Positions 8,619 through 18,662 of a stretch of DNA of 20,993 nt are shown piece after piece (the stretch's first letter is position 1; each line of letters begins with the position of its first letter). The translations under genes were made by a program, and so were the position numbers. The stretch spans positions 1-20,993 of the IMG/VR virus record IMGVR_UViG_3300030012_002288. One strand, written 5' to 3'. The notes beneath the pieces are model-generated. The model ran no database searches. It saw only the letters and a list, made by a program, of their open reading frames with translations, and was not told the DNA's origin. Source of the stretch: a virus.

Positions 8619-9431
8619 ATGGTAAATGTAAATACGGTATATCAAACAGTCTTGCAAATATTAAATAAAGAGCAAAGAGGTTATATAACTCCTGCTGAAT
8701 TTAATAATTTAGCACAGCAAGTACAGTTGGAAATATTTGAATCATATTTTCCAGATGGAAATCAATTAAACCGTCAAAACCAAAACAACACACAAAACGA
8801 CACTCAGTATTTTAATATTTTTAAAAATCAAGAGGAAAAAATTACTCCGTTCGTTAGAGATTTACCTCTAACTTATGATACAAATCAATTGGGTTGGTCT
8901 TATGATCCACCTCTAAATAACACTACGGGGCAAGCTGAATTTGAAATATATTGGACTGGTGAAATATTATCTTCTTATACTTCGTCTAATTCTCCGAGTT
9001 CTTCTTATGGTTCTAATGCCTCTACAAGTGGCGGTGATTATATAACTCAACTTGTTTCCAAGTCTGAATACAATAAGATTACAAGATCTAAATTAACAGC
9101 ACCAACTGAAAAATATCCTTTAGCTTACACAGACAGCGGCACCTTACAGCCTGGTTATAATCCTTATTTTAAAATATCACCATTACCAAACAGCGTTGAA
9201 ATAAACTGTATCGTAAGACCATTGACTCCTAGATGGAGTTTTAGACCTGGACAACAAGGACAGTATATTTTTTCACCAGGATCATCTTCTAATTTTACTT
9301 TACATATTTCCGAACAAACAAATATTATAATTCGTGTATTAAAATATGCAGGTGTAATAATAAATGATCCTACTATAATAGATGTAGCAGCTCAAGAAGT
9401 TGCTCAAGTAGAAGCAAACGAAAAATCTTAA
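8619..9431 (+). CDS. putative ring/head-tail connector protein
   Basis: 270-residue structural protein. The N-terminus (TVYQTVLQILNKEQRGYITP, residues 6-25, then FNNLAQQVQLEIFESYF) is a helical segment that I recall from a structural protein present in many crAss-like and marine Bacteroidota phages, where members of the neck/tail form stacked rings. The middle is beta-rich with a Ser/Asn-rich low-complexity loop (about residues 126-145, SSYTSSNSPSSSYGSNASTS). No enzyme motif is present. It starts a new run of tightly spaced tail genes after the terminator at 8578-8598; the leader AAATAAAAAATTAAT is pure A/T. Six bases separate it from the adaptor gene. Role as a ring or connector is inferred from order and remembered family similarity; 'structural protein' is safe. 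Confidence 0.6.
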   Translation: MVNVNTVYQTVLQILNKEQRGYITPAEFNNLAQQVQLEIFESYFPDGNQLNRQNQNNTQNDTQYFNIFKNQEEKITPFVRDLPLTYDTNQLGWSYDPPLNNTTGQAEFEIYWTGEILSSYTSSNSPSSSYGSNASTSGGDYITQLVSKSEYNKITRSKLTAPTEKYPLAYTDSGTLQPGYNPYFKISPLPNSVEINCIVRPLTPRWSFRPGQQGQYIFSPGSSSNFTLHISEQTNIIIRVLKYAGVIINDPTIIDVAAQEVAQVEANEKS

Positions 9432-10667: not shown

Positions 10668-13600
10668 ATGGCTAAAGTTCAAAATACTTTTTTAAAGTCC
10701 AAGATGAATAAAGACTTGGACGCTCGTTTATTGCCTGATGGTGAATACAGAGATGCTAGAAATGCTCAAATAAGTAAATCAGAAGGATCTAAAGTAGGTA
10801 ATTTAGAAAATACACTTGGAAACGTTAGTGTAGCAGACTATAGCGTATTAACTGGTGATACAGATATTGTTTGTATTGGTAGTTTTGCAGATGAATTAAA
10901 TAATACTGTTTATTTGTTTTTTACAGACTATAAAGATCAAAATCCAAATTTGCATGTATATTCGCCTACAGCTAAAAACTATATAATATCTACAAATATA
11001 TTATCGAATATATCTACAGTACTAGTAAAAGGTGCTTTTCTTAATTTTTCCCAAACAAACTTAATAACTGGTGTTAATATATTAGAAGATTTATTATTTT
11101 TTACAGATAATAGAAATCAACCAAGAGTTATAAATACTACGCTTGCTAATAGCAATCCGTCAGATACCAACCCAACATATTACACAACTGAAGATCAGAT
11201 ATCTGTAGCTAAATACAATCCATACGAAGCTATGGAACTTTGGCAACAAAGCACTACAACACCAGGTGCTACTCCAGAGTACGAAAGCACAATGAAAGAT
11301 GTTAGTACACTGTTTTTACCAAATGGAGGTACAGCACTTTCAACATCAGCCGTAACATCAGCTACTATACCAATAGATAACGTAGTAGGTGAGATTTATG
11401 AAAATGGTTCAGCTTATGGCGTCACAGGTGCTCCTGTGTCTTTGCAATCTAATTTAGCTGGAGGTGATTTTACTCTTACGTCTACTGGAGAAACTGTAAC
11501 TTCATGTGCATCAACCGGACCTGGAACGTTTACTTTAACAATGTCTAATCCTATAACTGTTTTAGATAATCAAAAACTTGTTTTTAATCCTAACCCTTAT
11601 TTTGACGCTAGATTTTCAGGTGATCCTGATTTTTTAGAAAGTAAATTCCCTAGATTTAGTTATAGATTTAAATTTGCTGATAATGAATATTCTATATTTG
11701 CACCTTTTACTCAAATAGCTTTCATACCAAAGCAAGACGGTTATTTTATGTTTGTAGACCCTACAGTTGGCACTAGCACTGGTAGTCAAGCTAAAAATGA
11801 TCAAGATGAAGCATATAGAAGTACTATTGTTTATTTTGTAGAAAATAAAGTAAATAAAATAGATTTAAAAATACCCCTTCCTTTCAATAACTATGACATG
11901 GAAGAGGCTTTAAAAATAAAAGAAATTGATATACTCTATAAAGAGTCAGATGGTGTAGCTGTAAGAGTAGTAGAAACTATACCTATAGATCAAGTAACAA
12001 ATCAATCAGGTGTTTGTTTGGTAGACGGAAATCAAGGGCCTATTGCAATTGGTAATAATTTAGCCATAAAAAATATTCAAGGAGGTATAACAGTTGGTAG
12101 CGTTGTTTTTGGACCAGGAATAAGCACTAACACTAGAGTTACAGAATTTCTACCTACAGACCCTAGTAATCCAGTTGCAGGTAATATAAAAGTAGATAAA
12201 ATAGTAACATTAGTGGACGATAACGCGCCATTAATTATAGGTGATATACAAAGATTTAATTATGAATATGAATCTACTAAGCCCACAAAAACCCTTCCTG
12301 AGTCTAATTTAATTAGAGTTTTCGATAAAATACCGGTTAGAGCTCAAGCGCAAGAAGTTGCTGGCAATAGAGTTATGTATGGTAATTTTCAAAACAAAAT
12401 AACTCCACCTAGTTTTTTAGACTACAACGTGGCTGCAACTCCAAAAGGAGATTTTGCACTTGCTGAGGCAACAATTGCATATGCAGGAGCCGCAGCAACT
12501 TATGCAGCTGGAGATCCAATAGCAGTTACACTTGTGAAATTTACACCACCCGCTGCTGATGGAGGTGGTTTATTTACAGGTTATATAGTAACATGTAATG
12601 AATATGGATCTATTATACCAACTAACACGCAAATAACAAGTACTACAAACAATACTTCTCTTGCTGCAGCAACTATAACACTATCTAATGCTGTTACTCT
12701 TCCAGCTGGAACATTTAATATTATAACAGCTCCAGGAGGTACTACAGAAGAGTCTGTAACTAGAATAGAATACCCAAATAGTTCTGTTAAAACGAATAGA
12801 AATTACCAGGTAGGTTTTGTTCTATCTGATAGATACGGTAGACAATCTAGTGTAATATTATCTGATAGCACAACATCAATTATTGCAACAAATGGTCAAG
12901 AGTTTGGAGGTTCTACCTTGTATTCTCCATATATAGATGAAAGTATAGATCCAATACAATGGCCTGGAAATTCATTGAAAATATTAATGAATGCACCAGT
13001 GCCAAATAATAATTTATATAATGGAGATATAACTAGCGTAGATTATAATCCATTAGGCTGGTATTCTTATAAGATAGTTGTAAAACAACAAGAACAGGAA
13101 TATTACAATGTTTATCTTCCTGGAATAATGGCATCGTATCCTAATGATACTACTTTAGAGGTGGGGCAGACTTCTCACACAGTTCTTATAAATGATAATA
13201 TAAATAAAGTACCTAGAGACTTAACAGAAGTAGGACCTGATCAAAAACAGTTTAGAAGCTCTGTTCAATTAATAGGTAGAGTTCAAAACACAACTACTGC
13301 AATTACCACAAACGTTGGTGCTTCTAACACTCAATACTATCCACAGAGAACAACAGATACAGTTTCTGTTATTTCAACTGTAAATGATTTATTTGATTTT
13401 AACCCTGTTGAACCGCCTTTACTTAATTTATTTCCTCAATTTTACTCTTTAGAGTCAAATCCTTTAATTGCTAGATTAAGTACTGAACTGCAAATAGGTC
13501 AATTAGCTAATTCTAACTACCTGCCAGCAGGTGGTGAATCAGTGGACATGAGTGGTACTGCGAGTTCTACAATACCTGTAACTTCTGTATCTGGTGATCC

Positions 13601-16190
13601 TTCACTTTTTGCGGCTCCTAATTTATTAGCTAATTATTTAGTTTCTGGAACAGGTATACCTTCGGAAACTTATGTAAATACTAACACTGTTATAGGTGGA
13701 GGTGGTACAGCAGGAGAAATAGATGTTACTTTAAAAGACGCTGGTGGTACAGCGGTTAGCGTCGCTTTACCAGCTAACATTAAAATAGCATTTACACCTA
13801 CCACAGGATCAGGTGGTAGTCCTGCTTTTTCATTAACTAGACCTGGCTTACAATATCTTTCAATTGCTGAGACAGAACCTGTAGAAAGTGCTTTAGATAT
13901 ATTCTGGGAAACATCTACATCAGGTTTAATATCAGAATTAAATCAAGCTGTATTAAATAATCAAGCTCAACCAGCGGGATCTAATATTACTTGGAATCCG
14001 GATTTTAATGAAGGTTTAGCTCAAAATGGTAATATTCTTGCCTCTGCGTTTTCTGTTGTAGACAACTTTGGTCAAATAGTACCAGTCACCGCTACTGACA
14101 TTGTAGAGGTTTCAACTATAACAAACGGAAATGGAGACAGTGTAAATGGAGCTGGTTTTGTATCAACTACGCAAGTTAGAGATTATTTTAGATTAGAGGA
14201 TTTAGGCACGAGTGGGACTGGTTATGGTCCTTGGCAAATAAAAACTACTTCACAAACCACTGCGGCTGGTTTAGGTGGACCAGTAGATGCAAGTGTTAAT
14301 TACTTTGACAATGTTTATTATTTTTACGATAATGACGAGGCTTTAAGACAATTTACTTTTACTTTTAGAGTTGTAATAGGTGGTCAAGAAAGTTTTATAA
14401 CAAGACAAGCTAATTTAGATAATGTTGCTCCAGAGTTTTTTAAAATTACAGCTCAAAACGTAAATACTCCAGATGTTGCGTATGGCCCAGGCGGCACTAC
14501 TCCATTAATAACACAAGTGCCCGTTCAAAGTAATAAATCAGCTTTAAACATAGCTTTAATAAAAATAAAAAATGGAGCTGCAAATAATACAGATCCAAAT
14601 CCAAATGGAGGTAGAGCTTTATCTGCTAGAGATCTAGATATAGTAGATCAAAATTTTGTTGATGGCTTTATATGGTCTCAAAACATAGGATCACCAGACG
14701 GACCTGTTGCAGAGGTTAATGCTTTTGGTTCACCTCAACCTATATTTTCATTATCACCAACTCTAGGATTAACTGGAGATGGCACTCTTGAATGGCAACT
14801 TAAAAACAATTTCTTTCAAGACCCAACATTAATAAGCGCTGGGGTTTATTATATAACACTAGCATTACAAGATGCTGGCGGTACTCTTATATTTCAACAA
14901 ATAGAAGTTAATATGACATTGCAATTAAATGGTAATAATTTTTACAATAAATTGCAGCAAGTAGGAGCTTTTGGACTTTTTACAAATGCTCCAGTACCCC
15001 AATATTTATTATCAGATAGTGGTGTAGAAGATTTTTGTGGCTCTGCTTCTTTTTGTCAACCTCCTGGCACAAGCACGAGATGGTGGAATTATCCAGCTAC
15101 TGTTTTTGAAGTAACTAATAGTGATCCAGGCGCCTCAGCTGATACATATGGATGGTATTTATATGCTTTAGGTTATTTTGCTAATACATCTACAGATGCT
15201 AGTCTTTGTTGTGATATAAGTAAATCTAACGGTACAGCCCCTAGTTTATCTTTAGTAGATTACTCTCAATTAGTAACCCCTGGTAATACTATTACTATAC
15301 CGATGAATACACCGATAACAGAGGGCAATCATTTAGTTCAAAAACAACCAACTGCAGCCGAAATGCCAATAACAGGTGCGGAAATACCTGGTTGGGGATT
15401 ACCACCACTTATTCATGGTAGGATAAAAGTTACTGCTTACGACGCAGTAAATTATCTTTGGACTTATGAAATATTAGAAGGTGATAGCACTACTGCTGTT
15501 GAAAATGGAGCACCGGGCACTGCTTTAACAGGTTGTATGAAATTATTTAGAGACGTTGGAGGTACTGATATAGCAGCTGGAGATGGATGGAATTATATAG
15601 ATGGATCTGCTACCAAAGCGGCTATGACTACTCATGTTTTAGATGGCAAGCCTGCAAGAAGAACTCCTAGAATAAAATATACACAAGTTAATGGTGGAAA
15701 TAAACAGTTTTATTGGAAACCAGGAATAGTTGCGTTTGGTTCTACTAATACTCAATATAACAGGGGAGGAACACCACTGTTAGATCCAACTGGAGCATTT
15801 CCTCAAATAGTATACACGTATGGCGGCCCTCAGAACTTTAAAACAAGTCCTTGGTTTTTTGTTCCAACAACTGGAATAACTCCCGCAGATGCAGAACCAA
15901 TACAAAGATTATGGTCTATGTACACTTATAGCGGATGGGTTGGCGCTCAATGGACAGGTGATAATAGAAAAACTTGGGGCACTCAATGGTGTCAAACATG
16001 GGATCGAAATACTTATCCTTTAGTAGTTGACCCTGTTAATAATGGATTAGTAGATGGACTTCAGGCTAGAATGAATGATGATACTCCATCTTGTCCAAGC
16101 TGGGCTGGTCACAGTGTCCAAGTAAATCGCCCACAAGAAAGTGAAGATGCAAGTTCAAGACCATCGAGTTATCAATACTCTGTAATATAG
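10668..16190 (+). CDS. giant tail muzzle/stabilization protein, N-terminal part
   Basis: 1840-residue structural protein, the largest here. The N-terminus (VQNTFLKSKMNKDLDARLLP then GEYRDARNAQISKSEGSKVG) and the region GWYSYKIVVKQQEQEYYNVY, ASYPNDTT, VPRDLTEVGPDQKQFRSSVQ match what I remember of the P22 gp10-like tail stabilization proteins of crAss-like and marine phages, called muzzle in the crAss virion structure. It should form the tail tip that plugs or guides DNA release. Beta-rich modules interrupt the conserved frame at about residues 222-309, 462-526, 601-690 and 961-1044. The C-terminal 400 residues hold a Cys cluster (C1457, C1463, C1514, C1515) and six Trp between W1749 and W1778. 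It ends in TAG followed directly by in-frame TAA. The next gene continues the family's conserved sequence, so the complex seems split over two genes. No enzyme motif seen. Confidence 0.75.
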   Translation: MAKVQNTFLKSKMNKDLDARLLPDGEYRDARNAQISKSEGSKVGNLENTLGNVSVADYSVLTGDTDIVCIGSFADELNNTVYLFFTDYKDQNPNLHVYSPTAKNYIISTNILSNISTVLVKGAFLNFSQTNLITGVNILEDLLFFTDNRNQPRVINTTLANSNPSDTNPTYYTTEDQISVAKYNPYEAMELWQQSTTTPGATPEYESTMKDVSTLFLPNGGTALSTSAVTSATIPIDNVVGEIYENGSAYGVTGAPVSLQSNLAGGDFTLTSTGETVTSCASTGPGTFTLTMSNPITVLDNQKLVFNPNPYFDARFSGDPDFLESKFPRFSYRFKFADNEYSIFAPFTQIAFIPKQDGYFMFVDPTVGTSTGSQAKNDQDEAYRSTIVYFVENKVNKIDLKIPLPFNNYDMEEALKIKEIDILYKESDGVAVRVVETIPIDQVTNQSGVCLVDGNQGPIAIGNNLAIKNIQGGITVGSVVFGPGISTNTRVTEFLPTDPSNPVAGNIKVDKIVTLVDDNAPLIIGDIQRFNYEYESTKPTKTLPESNLIRVFDKIPVRAQAQEVAGNRVMYGNFQNKITPPSFLDYNVAATPKGDFALAEATIAYAGAAATYAAGDPIAVTLVKFTPPAADGGGLFTGYIVTCNEYGSIIPTNTQITSTTNNTSLAAATITLSNAVTLPAGTFNIITAPGGTTEESVTRIEYPNSSVKTNRNYQVGFVLSDRYGRQSSVILSDSTTSIIATNGQEFGGSTLYSPYIDESIDPIQWPGNSLKILMNAPVPNNNLYNGDITSVDYNPLGWYSYKIVVKQQEQEYYNVYLPGIMASYPNDTTLEVGQTSHTVLINDNINKVPRDLTEVGPDQKQFRSSVQLIGRVQNTTTAITTNVGASNTQYYPQRTTDTVSVISTVNDLFDFNPVEPPLLNLFPQFYSLESNPLIARLSTELQIGQLANSNYLPAGGESVDMSGTASSTIPVTSVSGDPSLFAAPNLLANYLVSGTGIPSETYVNTNTVIGGGGTAGEIDVTLKDAGGTAVSVALPANIKIAFTPTTGSGGSPAFSLTRPGLQYLSIAETEPVESALDIFWETSTSGLISELNQAVLNNQAQPAGSNITWNPDFNEGLAQNGNILASAFSVVDNFGQIVPVTATDIVEVSTITNGNGDSVNGAGFVSTTQVRDYFRLEDLGTSGTGYGPWQIKTTSQTTAAGLGGPVDASVNYFDNVYYFYDNDEALRQFTFTFRVVIGGQESFITRQANLDNVAPEFFKITAQNVNTPDVAYGPGGTTPLITQVPVQSNKSALNIALIKIKNGAANNTDPNPNGGRALSARDLDIVDQNFVDGFIWSQNIGSPDGPVAEVNAFGSPQPIFSLSPTLGLTGDGTLEWQLKNNFFQDPTLISAGVYYITLALQDAGGTLIFQQIEVNMTLQLNGNNFYNKLQQVGAFGLFTNAPVPQYLLSDSGVEDFCGSASFCQPPGTSTRWWNYPATVFEVTNSDPGASADTYGWYLYALGYFANTSTDASLCCDISKSNGTAPSLSLVDYSQLVTPGNTITIPMNTPITEGNHLVQKQPTAAEMPITGAEIPGWGLPPLIHGRIKVTAYDAVNYLWTYEILEGDSTTAVENGAPGTALTGCMKLFRDVGGTDIAAGDGWNYIDGSATKAAMTTHVLDGKPARRTPRIKYTQVNGGNKQFYWKPGIVAFGSTNTQYNRGGTPLLDPTGAFPQIVYTYGGPQNFKTSPWFFVPTTGITPADAEPIQRLWSMYTYSGWVGAQWTGDNRKTWGTQWCQTWDRNTYPLVVDPVNNGLVDGLQARMNDDTPSCPSWAGHSVQVNRPQESEDASSRPSSYQYSVI
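11331..11594 (+). repeat. beta-rich module A in muzzle protein
   Basis: Residues about 222-309. Thr/Ser/Val-rich segment with alternating hydrophobics, opening SAVTSATIPIDNV and closing with LTMSNPITVLDNQKLVFNP. The closing pattern (…L…VTL…LxF) recurs in modules B-F. The glycine turn typical of the others is replaced by a different central loop, so this is a divergent copy. Confidence 0.4.
12051..12245 (+). repeat. beta-rich module B in muzzle protein
   Basis: Residues about 462-526. Contains VGSVVFGPGISTNTRVTEF, which fits the module consensus G-x-GI-x-x-x-T-x-V, and closes with IKVDKIVTLVDDNAPLIIGD. It interrupts the conserved muzzle sequence between the KEIDILYKESDGVAVRVVE region and FNYEYESTKP. 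Confidence 0.5.
12468..12737 (+). repeat. beta-rich module C in muzzle protein
   Basis: Residues about 601-690. Ala/Thr-rich, with YGSIIPTNTQITSTTNNTSL and the closing strand pattern ATITLSNAVTLPAGTFNI. It lies between the conserved MYGNFQNKITPPSFLDYNVA segment and EYPNSSVKTNRNYQVGFVLS, as if inserted in a surface loop. Confidence 0.45.
13548..13799 (+). repeat. beta-rich module D in muzzle protein
   Basis: Residues about 961-1044. Opens SGTASSTIPVTSVSG, has the key turn VSGTGIPSETYVNTNTV and closes VALPANIKIAFTP. With module E it is the clearest pair: both have an SGxGIPxxTxV turn. Confidence 0.55.
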
Positions 16191-16222
16191 TAATTATATT
16201 ATAAAATAAGTAATAATTAAAT
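16191..16222 (+). promoter_or_regulatory. A/T-only intergenic leader between the two muzzle genes
   Basis: The 32-base gap contains just two G/C bases. It begins with TAATTATATTATA (16191-16203), identical to the core of the leader before the scaffold gene (4924-4936), but here 19 bases rather than 2 before the ATG. The first three bases form an in-frame TAA after the TAG of the upstream gene. It may hold a promoter or only a translation-initiation leader; no hairpin is present. Confidence 0.35.
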
Positions 16223-18130
16223 ATGGCAGGTGCAATAATAGAAATAAAATACTTTAATACTTTTTTACTAAAAAAGACTAATAATACCACTCCAACACCT
16301 GTTTGGAATGGGTCTTTTGGTATACCTGAACCTATAGGTGGTTATCCTGTGCAAACTGGACTTCCAGAAGCTGATAGCTGGGTCATAGAAGAATCTAGAA
16401 TTAGAGGAGGATATAACAATACTTCAGTTGATTTTGGAGCAAAAGCCTATATAGTTGAAGATGAGCCGGTTGGAACTAGAAGATTTAATACCTTAATATA
16501 CTCTGGTATATTTAATTCAAGAACAGGTATAAATAACACAAATGTTTTTTCTGTTGGTGAAGATATAACTAAGTCTTTAGATCCTGCAAATGGAAGTATA
16601 CAAAAGCTGTATGCTGAAGATACAAATTTAAGTATATTTCAAGAGCTTAAAGTAAGTAGAGCTTTAATAGATAAAGATGCTATATATTCAGCTGAAGGAG
16701 GTGGGACCGTCACAAGTTCTAATCTTGTTATTGGAGCTATACAGCCATATGTTGGTAAATATGGAATATCTAAAAATCCTGAAAGCTTTGGAGTATACGG
16801 TAATAGAAAGTATTTCACAGATAGAAATAATAATGTAGTTCTTAGATTATCAAATGATGGTATTACTGAAATATCATCTTACGGTATGAAAGACTTTTTT
16901 AGAGATAATCTAGCCTTATCAAGAACAGTGTCTACAGAAGGGAAAATAATAGGTGGCTATGATATATATGGAAGTGAGTATGTAGTTTCAATACAGAATT
17001 CTCAAGGTTTAAATAGTCCTGTTAGACTTCCTCAAAATAATACATTAAATTTTGATGAAAAATCACAAGGTTGGGTTAGCTTTTTTGATTATGTTCCTGA
17101 TGAAATTTTTAGTTTAAGAAACAATTATTATTCTGTTAAAACTCAAGGCGGTACAGCTTTAACTAACGGAGCTGTTACCGCGACTACTAACTTAAACGTA
17201 GACAATGTTAAGAATTTTATACAAGCAAACTCCGTAGTTACAACATCTGGAGCAGGTATACCGGTAAACACCGTTGTAGTTAGTTTTAATTATTCTACAG
17301 GAGCGTTAGTTCTTAATAATAATGTTACGCTTGGAGATAATGTTACTTTAAACTTTAGTGGTGTTCCACAATTATGGAGACATTATAGTAACCAAGTAAA
17401 TAGAGGAAGCTTCTATGGAGTTGATCACTCAAGCTCTATTACTTTTGTATTTAATCCAAATCCAACAAATTCTAAAACATTTAAAACAATAGGATACGAA
17501 GGTAGTAATGGTTGGCAAGTAGATAGTGTTGTTTCAGATGAAACAGGACCTATATTTGATAGTGGTTTTCAAATAAATGAAGACAGTGGTGCTTCAATAA
17601 ATAGTCATCATAATGCAGAGTATATTTTAACAGAAGGGCAAGCTACAGTTTTGCAAGACGTAACTGCATCAGCCACTGTTTTATTAAATATTGGTAGCGT
17701 TAATGGATATATTTTTGCTGGAAATACTGTTTTTTCTGATGAAATAAATAGTTCTCTTAGAACAGTCGTTTCTTATAATGCTACTACAGGCGCTTTAGTA
17801 TTAAGTCAACCTGTAACTTTAACAGCTGGATCTCTTATATTTTTCAATGGAGATGTTTCAAGGTCTAACTATGCTTCTATTTTTGGCAGTGCTGTTCCTT
17901 CTTTAAATAGATACTATAATGGTTTCAATTTAAAAGAAAACAAATATGTTGCTAACTTAATAAATAATACTCAACCAAGTTTTGGTGAAATTAATTTTGG
18001 TAAAAATATAACTGGTATAAAAGGTTTTTATGCTACTGTTAAAATGTCTACTGATTCAACAACCGCGCTAGGTGGAGAAAAAAGTTTATTTTCCGTAGAA
18101 AGCAACTACGATATGAATAACGGATATTAA
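16223..18130 (+). CDS. muzzle/stabilization protein, C-terminal part
   Basis: 635-residue structural protein that reads like the continuation of the preceding giant protein. Conserved-looking blocks include SWVIEESRIRGGYNNTSVDF, KSLDPANGSIQKLYAEDTNL, FQELKVSRALIDKDAIYSAE and KYGISKNPESFGVYGNRKYF, then FTDRNNNVVLRLSNDGITEI with YGMKDFFRDN; I recall these from P22 gp10-like stabilization proteins of marine crAss-like phages, a beta-propeller-like fold. Two inserted beta modules lie at residues about 309-380 and 473-544. The end (NNTQPSFGEINFGKNITGIKG, SLFSVESNYDMNNGY) looks complete. The ATG at 16223 is the first start after stops in all upstream codons of this frame. It probably assembles together with the 1840-aa protein at the tail tip. 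Split versus fused state in relatives was not checked. Confidence 0.75.
   Translation: MAGAIIEIKYFNTFLLKKTNNTTPTPVWNGSFGIPEPIGGYPVQTGLPEADSWVIEESRIRGGYNNTSVDFGAKAYIVEDEPVGTRRFNTLIYSGIFNSRTGINNTNVFSVGEDITKSLDPANGSIQKLYAEDTNLSIFQELKVSRALIDKDAIYSAEGGGTVTSSNLVIGAIQPYVGKYGISKNPESFGVYGNRKYFTDRNNNVVLRLSNDGITEISSYGMKDFFRDNLALSRTVSTEGKIIGGYDIYGSEYVVSIQNSQGLNSPVRLPQNNTLNFDEKSQGWVSFFDYVPDEIFSLRNNYYSVKTQGGTALTNGAVTATTNLNVDNVKNFIQANSVVTTSGAGIPVNTVVVSFNYSTGALVLNNNVTLGDNVTLNFSGVPQLWRHYSNQVNRGSFYGVDHSSSITFVFNPNPTNSKTFKTIGYEGSNGWQVDSVVSDETGPIFDSGFQINEDSGASINSHHNAEYILTEGQATVLQDVTASATVLLNIGSVNGYIFAGNTVFSDEINSSLRTVVSYNATTGALVLSQPVTLTAGSLIFFNGDVSRSNYASIFGSAVPSLNRYYNGFNLKENKYVANLINNTQPSFGEINFGKNITGIKGFYATVKMSTDSTTALGGEKSLFSVESNYDMNNGY
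17147..17362 (+). repeat. beta-rich module E in second muzzle protein
   Basis: Residues about 309-380. Opens GGTALTNGAVTATTNLNVDN, turn TTSGAGIPVNTVVVSF, then YSTGALVLNNNVTLGDNVTL and NFSG. It shares the strand pattern T-T-x-L-x-[LIV] … TGALVL … VTL … F with module F downstream. Confidence 0.6.
17639..17854 (+). repeat. beta-rich module F in second muzzle protein
   Basis: Residues about 473-544. Shares with module E the middle ATTGALVLSQPVTLTAGSL (E: STGALVLNNNVTLGDNV) and the same length of about 72 residues, so E and F are the best-supported duplicated pair. The SGxGIP turn of E is replaced here by FSDEINSSLRTVV. Confidence 0.6.
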
Positions 18131-18140
18131 ATTAAATTAA

Positions 18141-18662
18141 ATGAATAATTCCTTAGTAAAACAAGAGTATACATTAGAGCAATTAGAGCACATACAGCGC
18201 TTTAGAGAGCTTATAATGGACTTTGAAGAAAAACTATTAGATTTACCAGGTTCTTACGGTGATCCTAAAAAACCTGGCCAAGATGAAATAGCTAACACGG
18301 TTAATCCACTTAAGCACACTTTTGCGGATGGATTATATATTAGAGAAATATTTATGCCTAAAGGCCAAATAATCTCTACTGGTATACATAAAAAAGAACA
18401 TCCTTATTTTGTATTAAAAGGTGATATATCTGTATTGACAGATGAAGGCATTAAACGCATAAAAGCCCCATACAACGGAATAACAAAACCAGGAACAAAA
18501 AGATTAATATATATGCATGAAGACAGTATATGGATAACTGTTCATGCTACAGATAAAACTACACCGGAAGATGTATTAAATGATGTTGTAGCAAAAGACT
18601 TTAATGATCCAGATATTAGCATAGAAAGCATGAAGAAACAATTAAAATTAAAAAATAAATAA
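18141..18662 (+). CDS. phage cupin-fold protein
   Basis: 173-residue protein with a single cupin-like beta-barrel. The core is at residues 67-137: IREIFMPKGQIISTGIHKKE, then HPYFVLKGDISVLT, then KPGTKRLIYMHEDSIWITVH. H83, H87, H126 and H135 are candidate metal or ligand residues, and the PG turn (117-118) is where cupin motif 2 begins. In front is a helical region (about 10-40) and behind it an acidic helical tail. Similar single cupins occur beside tail genes in many phages, as I recall, but their substrate is unknown; a structural role, carbohydrate binding or an enzyme are all possible. The gene is packed between muzzle and the next virion-type gene (10-base and 1-base gaps), so it is probably co-expressed late and may be virion-associated. 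Fold fairly sure, function not. Confidence 0.75.
   Translation: MNNSLVKQEYTLEQLEHIQRFRELIMDFEEKLLDLPGSYGDPKKPGQDEIANTVNPLKHTFADGLYIREIFMPKGQIISTGIHKKEHPYFVLKGDISVLTDEGIKRIKAPYNGITKPGTKRLIYMHEDSIWITVHATDKTTPEDVLNDVVAKDFNDPDISIESMKKQLKLKNK

Follow-up and report, generated by a model that had tools for sequence, protein, structure and literature searches.

A family of small beta-domains inserted in a split crAss-like muzzle, with signs of single-module replacement between relatives

Six copies of a small beta-rich domain, referred to here as modules A to F, are borne by the muzzle proteins encoded in the stretch of DNA analysed here (the window, 20,993 bases out of the 25,417-base IMG/VR virus record IMGVR_UViG_3300030012_002288). 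Profile comparison confirmed the six segments as members of one domain family of ~70–90 residues, and alignment with relatives indicates that they are insertions in the muzzle rather than strands of its propeller. The modules look like replaceable cassettes, presumably exchanged by recombination, and they probably act as interchangeable contact surfaces plugged into exposed loops of a hexameric injection tip.

One domain family at six sites

The label 'muzzle proteins', given in an initial annotation made from the letters of the window, is right, because both proteins match crAss muzzle families. The N-terminal part (1840 amino acids; 10668–16190, + strand), which bears modules A–D, matches PF25731 crAss_MUZ (E = 2.9e-9 over residues 5–181; 36 bits) and phrog_14478 (E = 9e-40), while the C-terminal part (635 amino acids; 16223–18130, + strand), which bears modules E and F, matches PF25729 crAss_MUZ_C (E = 5.8e-10; 39.9 bits) and the same PHROG (E = 3.1e-46). 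Both bit scores lie above the Pfam cut-off, which is 27 for each family, and the family profile of the C-terminal part aligns with residues 1058–1297 of crAss001 gp44.

The segments picked out by that annotation, four in the longer protein and two in the shorter, are at the places it gave and measure 74–91 residues. They comprise module A (residues 223–308; 11334–11591), a diverged copy without the GIP turn, module B (residues 443–527; 11994–12248), module C (residues 610–689; 12495–12734, with the profile match beginning at 12471) and module D (residues 955–1045; 13530–13802) in the 1840-residue protein, and module E (residues 306–380; 17138–17362) and module F (residues 471–544; 17633–17854) in the 635-residue protein, all on the + strand. 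Site E falls at about residues 1234–1237 of crAss001 gp44, as hand-counted from the alignment. Of the strand and turn pattern given in that annotation, the GIP turn is absent from modules A and F. The GC content of the modules (0.34–0.41, versus 0.34 for the muzzle) is uninformative.

Modules E and F, named beforehand as the most alike, are the closest pair within the six (BLASTP 37% identity, E = 9e-11; hhalign P = 1.4e-15), and other pairs are weaker in direct BLASTP comparison. A first profile held E- and F-site modules only, taken from relatives of the window, which are the best 80 of 234 IMG/VR matches to the 635-residue protein (loci L001–L080). Before iteration this profile matched module B in the window at E = 5e-4, module A only at 0.86 and module D at 2.2, and gave no line for module C. 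After iteration over the open reading frames (ORFs) of the window and the loci, the E-values were 1e-10 for A, 2e-13 for B, 4e-9 for C, 8e-3 for D and 1e-15 for F, with 185 matches below E = 1e-3 in the last round and none of 2078 decoys (1039 reversed and 1039 block-shuffled) below E = 0.01 in any of the four rounds. As a control against profile drift, one profile per site was built from position alone, regardless of any match to the first profile (59, 31, 47, 47, 10 and 18 sequences for sites A to F). These position-only profiles matched each other in all 15 pairs (hhalign P = 4.5e-7 to 1.4e-15), including that of the diverged site A against the other five (P ≤4.5e-7) and that of site D (P = 4.5e-7 to 1.6e-12), whereas their reversed controls gave no match (best P = 0.043); profiles of modules selected by hidden Markov model agree with them. 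Module D is weak alone in the window, and D-site modules of relatives are strong (E = 2e-20 in L036). The profile self-comparison suggested in the initial annotation thus upholds the relatedness that it had proposed.

Known domain models do not account for the family. Pfam over 39 modules gave 15 families with one member each (best E = 0.004), none of which covers the module; immunoglobulin (Ig)-like and fn3 models appear as single weak matches only, each in 1 of the 39 modules (fn3 E = 0.0071, Big_11 0.029, Big_1 0.07). Pfam contains a BACON model, and this model is absent among the matches of the 39 modules at E = 1, as is PF21430, the T5 pb9 B domain. Sequence searches of the PDB returned nothing for the 635-residue protein or for the module profile, and one insignificant antibody match (E = 0.22) for the 1840-residue protein, while single modules compared with phage records by tblastn found weak matches only (E = 3, 0.03 and 0.02).

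Filled and closed sites in relatives

Each of the six sites is filled by a module in some relatives and closed in others, which argues that the modules are not propeller strands. In the alignment of the N-terminal part (77 rows, after L039, L043, L059 and L062 were dropped for cut or broken ORFs), site A holds a module in 27 rows, is closed by 9–10 residues in 11 and has a long stretch without confident match in 39 under the overlap rule used. Site B holds a module in 36 rows and is closed by 10–33 residues in 41; site C holds a module in 54, is closed in 22 and carries another long insert in one; and site D holds a module in 39, is closed in 24 and carries a long insert without confident match in 14. 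In the C-terminal part, modules at site E are restricted to the window and 10 of the 80 relatives (11 of 81 rows), with the site closed by 4–18 residues in the other 70, and site F holds a module in 21 of 80 rows (L005 being omitted at a contig end) and is closed in 59, among them L078–L080, which are too diverged to be sure. Conserved flanks continue through all six sites in the module-less relatives, where the gaps are closed by 0–33 residues, so that the statement that the segments interrupt otherwise conserved sequence is borne out by the alignment; by the same alignment, the host loops appear hairpin-like. Structure prediction had been named as the check for unrelated folds or propeller strands, and the result that would have refuted the initial reading did not arise: module E folds as a unit and every site is closed somewhere, but E is the only module folded, and out of context.

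Modules also occupy additional places, near the end of the N-terminal part in L034 and near the end of the C-terminal part in L034, L044 and L047. At E = 1, the module profile found no match in the single-gene muzzles of crAss001, phi38:1, Gundel_1, elemoA and MW202828, and the split muzzle of Maribacter phage Panino gave a single borderline match (0.015).

Replacement of single modules between close relatives

Closely related muzzle genes differ almost completely in single modules. DNA identity was measured in 20-codon intervals along the muzzle, and backbone identity both over residues 1–1100 of the N-terminal part and over the whole N-terminal part, two measures that differ for some pairs (86% versus 71% for L010/L012). 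For example, intervals of L022 and L026 are mostly 83–100% identical, but 44–64% over modules C and D, with the break in identity falling within ~20 codons of the module edges. Similarly, L048 and L049 are 94% identical in backbone residues, 97% in module B and 93% in module C, but 33–37% in module D, where DNA intervals are 39–66% identical. L072 and L073 have a backbone identity of 96% and a D identity of 56%, while L072 and L037 (92% backbone) share 96% of module D. In L020 and L024 (backbone 90–92%), modules D (98%) and F (91%) are conserved, but B (56%) and C (20–42%) are not, with DNA mostly 37–76% identical over B and C; L024 bears a second, tandem module at site C. Across 23 pairs with 85–98.5% backbone identity, intervals below 65% nucleotide identity made up 72 of 423 within modules, 9 of 169 at module edges and 32 of 2417 outside, although these pair and site counts contain near-duplicate contigs and are not independent.

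An alternative without exchange is that the modules arose by old duplications within the muzzle and simply change more quickly than its other parts. Three findings are as such divergence would predict: modules cluster by site, in most cases they are less alike than the backbone, and some stretches of the muzzle outside the modules change fast as well (L041/L057). However, uniformly faster change is hard to reconcile with pairs in which some modules are 93–98% alike and another 20–56% (D in L048/L049 and L072/L073, C in L020/L024), or with modules more alike than their backbone, namely B in L006/L020 (83% versus 57%) and D in L040/L048 (92% versus 83%), which fit exchange; the presence of the module in other virion proteins also speaks against it. 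Divergence without exchange is considered improbable.

Several results nevertheless weigh against exchangeable contact surfaces. Comparison of 16 loci at sites C and D revealed no donor, the best candidates reaching 47% for D of L049, 39% for D of L026 and 47% for C of L026 (collections were not searched for donors), and for this reason replacement by recombination stays an inference. The muzzle also has fast-changing stretches outside the six sites, as in L041/L057, which drop to 40–51% nucleotide identity there, and L048/L049 drop to 68–78% at residues 61–116 and to 58–63% within module A. A tree of 148 modules clusters by site (27 changes, versus a mean of 93 when shuffled), so descent at their own site appears to be the rule for most modules. 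The approximately unbiased (AU) test does not reject one origin for the E-site (p = 0.68) or the F-site (p = 0.72) modules. Finally, site E belongs to the C-terminal part of the muzzle and so falls beyond the residues that PMC10172136 assigns to IG2 and the crass domain, and the exposure of the sites is presumed.

On the backbone tree (FastTree, with long-branch warnings), module presence can be explained by 1–4 changes at each site, with a minimum of three imposed by supported branches at site E. The trees raised the possibility that the E module of the window originated separately, but this was dropped; since a single clade was not rejected, no separate source is claimed for it. Taken with these points, presence and absence at the sites, the near-complete replacement of single modules and the occurrence of the module in other virion proteins support the earlier suggestion of exchangeable domains in loops that vary between related phages, with exchange of modules remaining the preferred reading.

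Predicted fold

Modelled by AlphaFold2 with an alignment of 107 modules, module E is predicted with high confidence (predicted local distance difference test, pLDDT, 96.3; predicted TM-score, pTM, 0.84) as six strands without helix; from single sequence, the whole 635-residue protein gave no usable model of the module in context (pLDDT 28). Among predicted viral structures, the best match to module E is a Prochlorococcus phage P-HM1 protein (E = 8.6e-4, TM-score 0.86 by query length), followed with weaker E-values by virion proteins, tail fibres and a P22 gp10-type protein, while Foldseek against the PDB gave nothing better than E = 0.078. Structural re-alignment placed a JBD30 baseplate protein (Z = 8.9), the Chi tail tip (8.4), the Mystique tail tube (8.3), a gene transfer agent (GTA) virion chain (7.1) and T5 pb9 (7.0) nearest, where, according to the tool, Z below 8 may reflect merely a common arrangement. 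Of the first 17 structural rows, 12 are virion proteins of phages or GTAs, T5 pb9 accounting for four; archaeal proteins and translation factors are interspersed among them, and F1-ATPase barrels follow at Z ~6. T5 pb9 aligns with module E at Z = 6.4–7.0 and a root-mean-square deviation of 2.5–2.8 over 70–71 residues, within the range that the tool calls common. Ig-like and fn3 domains are absent from the 50 structural rows listed, which excludes nothing. It can safely be stated that the module is predicted to be a small beta-barrel-like domain with six strands, of a type that phage tail proteins also contain; the same fold would follow by homology for modules A–D and F, module E being the only one modelled with success.

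Modules in other virion proteins

The module is found beyond the muzzle. At 2578–3570 of L028, a homologue of the window's 270-residue ring-type protein (gene 8619–9431) bears a module (E = 4e-15), with flanks that align to residues ≤178 and ≥184 of the window protein, leaving five unmatched residues between in the window. Two modules occur in Roseobacter phage CRP-345 gp51 (L098, 5434–7857). The annotation of gp51 is putative tail structure protein and that of its neighbour putative tail fibre protein; by position only, gp51 is taken for a nozzle-type protein. This protein also has a pb9-B-like stretch (E = 6e-5 to PF21430, which is below cut-off), to which the 107 modules show no sequence link (hhalign probability 0.4%). 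Its best PHROG is labelled amidase, which is doubtful beside the tail structure annotation. The module is further present in a tail sheath protein (L087) and in tail fibres (L095 and L096).

Among the 595 genome pattern matches listed, at least five large bacterial proteins or loci have module-like stretches. Those noted (L131–L135) are large proteins of Opitutae, Chthoniobacter, Ignavibacteria, Proteobacteria and Planctomycetaceae, and one L131 protein has ten weak to moderate module-like stretches.

Tentatively, and with a prospect somewhat short of even, the modules may belong to a general plug-in system of tailed-phage virions, in which small cassettes of one beta-domain family have been inserted again and again into loops of muzzle, ring, sheath, fibre and other tail proteins in unrelated phages and are exchanged as units. 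If this is true, the injection tip would keep a fixed core and a replaceable outer surface at six docking places.

Proposed role

In crAss001, the muzzle is a hexamer at the tail end, which it gates, and its crass domain has exposed surface loops that likely contact the cell (PMC10172136). By the proposed mechanism, six-stranded domains of ~70–90 residues would be plugged into loops of the crAss-like muzzle, a hexameric gatekeeper at the tail tip, and single-module differences would arise by recombination in the conserved flanks. Presented on exposed loops and forming no part of the channel, the modules would contact the host surface or other outside partners. Because the crAss001 muzzle is a hexamer, six modules on six subunits would amount to ~36 modules per virion tip. 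An arrangement in which the core is conserved and the additions are replaceable is consistent with contact to outside partners that vary.

The main rival is that the modules are structural clamps, inserted domains that pack on neighbouring muzzle or ring subunits and stabilise the tail tip rather than touch the host. There is precedent in the YSD1 tail tube, where the inserted domain2 packs against the neighbouring subunit and gives the ring stability (PMC8718954). The three solved structures closest in fold come from a baseplate, a tail tip and a tail tube, and clustering by site fits a site-specific interface. However, modules are absent from many relatives, and near-total difference of a single module in near-identical genes is not readily explained if the packing interface is conserved, which leaves clamping a real though rather unlikely alternative to outside contact.

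By analogy with evolved Dit proteins, the modules might instead be carbohydrate-binding modules (CBMs) that hold the tip on host polysaccharide. Siphophages are known to carry CBMs in loops of Dit (PMC7291167). The module model resembles the T5 Dit protein pb9 (Z = 6.4–7.0) and domains of two tailspikes (Z = 6.5–6.7), but at such Z the likeness may be just that of a common barrel. Tryptophan makes up 0.2% of module residues, with 95 of the 107 modules lacking it and 26 lacking both tryptophan and tyrosine, a scarcity unusual for aromatic glycan-binding platforms, and the best conserved positions are glycine, aliphatic or phenylalanine, and no polar or aromatic ligand site common to the modules can be seen. 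Low tryptophan speaks, indirectly, against aromatic glycan binding and not against protein or weak surface contact. The glycan binding raised in the initial annotation is thus not borne out, as no test here supports it, and a carbohydrate-binding role is judged quite unlikely relative to interchangeable contact surfaces.

Gene content of the window and the split muzzle

Genes in the window run in the order terminase large subunit, portal protein, capsid-type protein, two virion structural proteins and then the 1840- and 635-residue muzzle proteins; from crAss gene order, the two virion structural proteins upstream are inferred to be ring proteins. A small gene 3' of the muzzle (18141–18662) matches tail fibre families (phrog_12032, E = 8e-33; phrog_24280, E = 9e-30).

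The muzzle of the window is divided between two adjacent ORFs, unlike crAss001 gp44, which is a single gene product, as is the muzzle of phi38:1, Gundel_1, elemoA and MW202828. A separate upstream ORF of more than 300 residues stands beside the C-terminal ORF in 80 of 80 relative loci, according to an ORF scan in which boundaries were not checked individually. The gene split leaves the homology of the muzzle parts unaffected. The muzzle of Maribacter phage Panino is also in two pieces, but split at a different place. By eye, residues ~1400–1840 of the 1840-residue protein (~14865–16187) are rich in tryptophan and tyrosine, with no Pfam match and no best PHROG stretch there; this C-terminal stretch may be an additional domain connected with the division of the gene.

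Comparison with known systems

No paper on the module family was found in the open literature, where most subscription papers are missing. Variation of muzzle length by insertions in the crass and IG2 regions, which can affect surface properties, has already been published (PMC10172136), while the module family, the six docking places and the evidence for replacement appear to be new. Together they make a concrete system out of a published remark on muzzle length, with a single family of modules, six docking places and natural cases of both empty sites and replacement. The empty and replaced sites offer ready comparisons for the role of the outer surface of the crAss-like injection tip, and a domain model would label inserts in virion proteins that are now without any Pfam match.

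The closest known case is the crAss001 muzzle gp44, which is the same host protein and varies in length by insertion, but gp44 itself has no module match, and in the available part of PMC10172136 a shared module family and its swapping are not named. BACON repeats of crAss-like phages are likewise small domains in tail-linked proteins, with horizontal transfer of separate domains reported (PMC6949934), but they are of another domain type and arranged in tandem. For capsids, a decoration protein with an OB fold is known (PMC6449081). The CBM-bearing evolved Dit (PMC7291167) and the T5 pb9 B domain share with the muzzle the presence of extra small domains on a hexameric tail-tip protein, but pb9 resembles the module model only at Z values that the tool calls common, and no link in sequence was found. 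Finally, Ig-like domains are another recurrent addition to virion proteins, for which a weak role in carbohydrate contact has been proposed (PMC8718954), but these belong to different families and are described there as C-terminal additions, whereas the muzzle modules are internal insertions.

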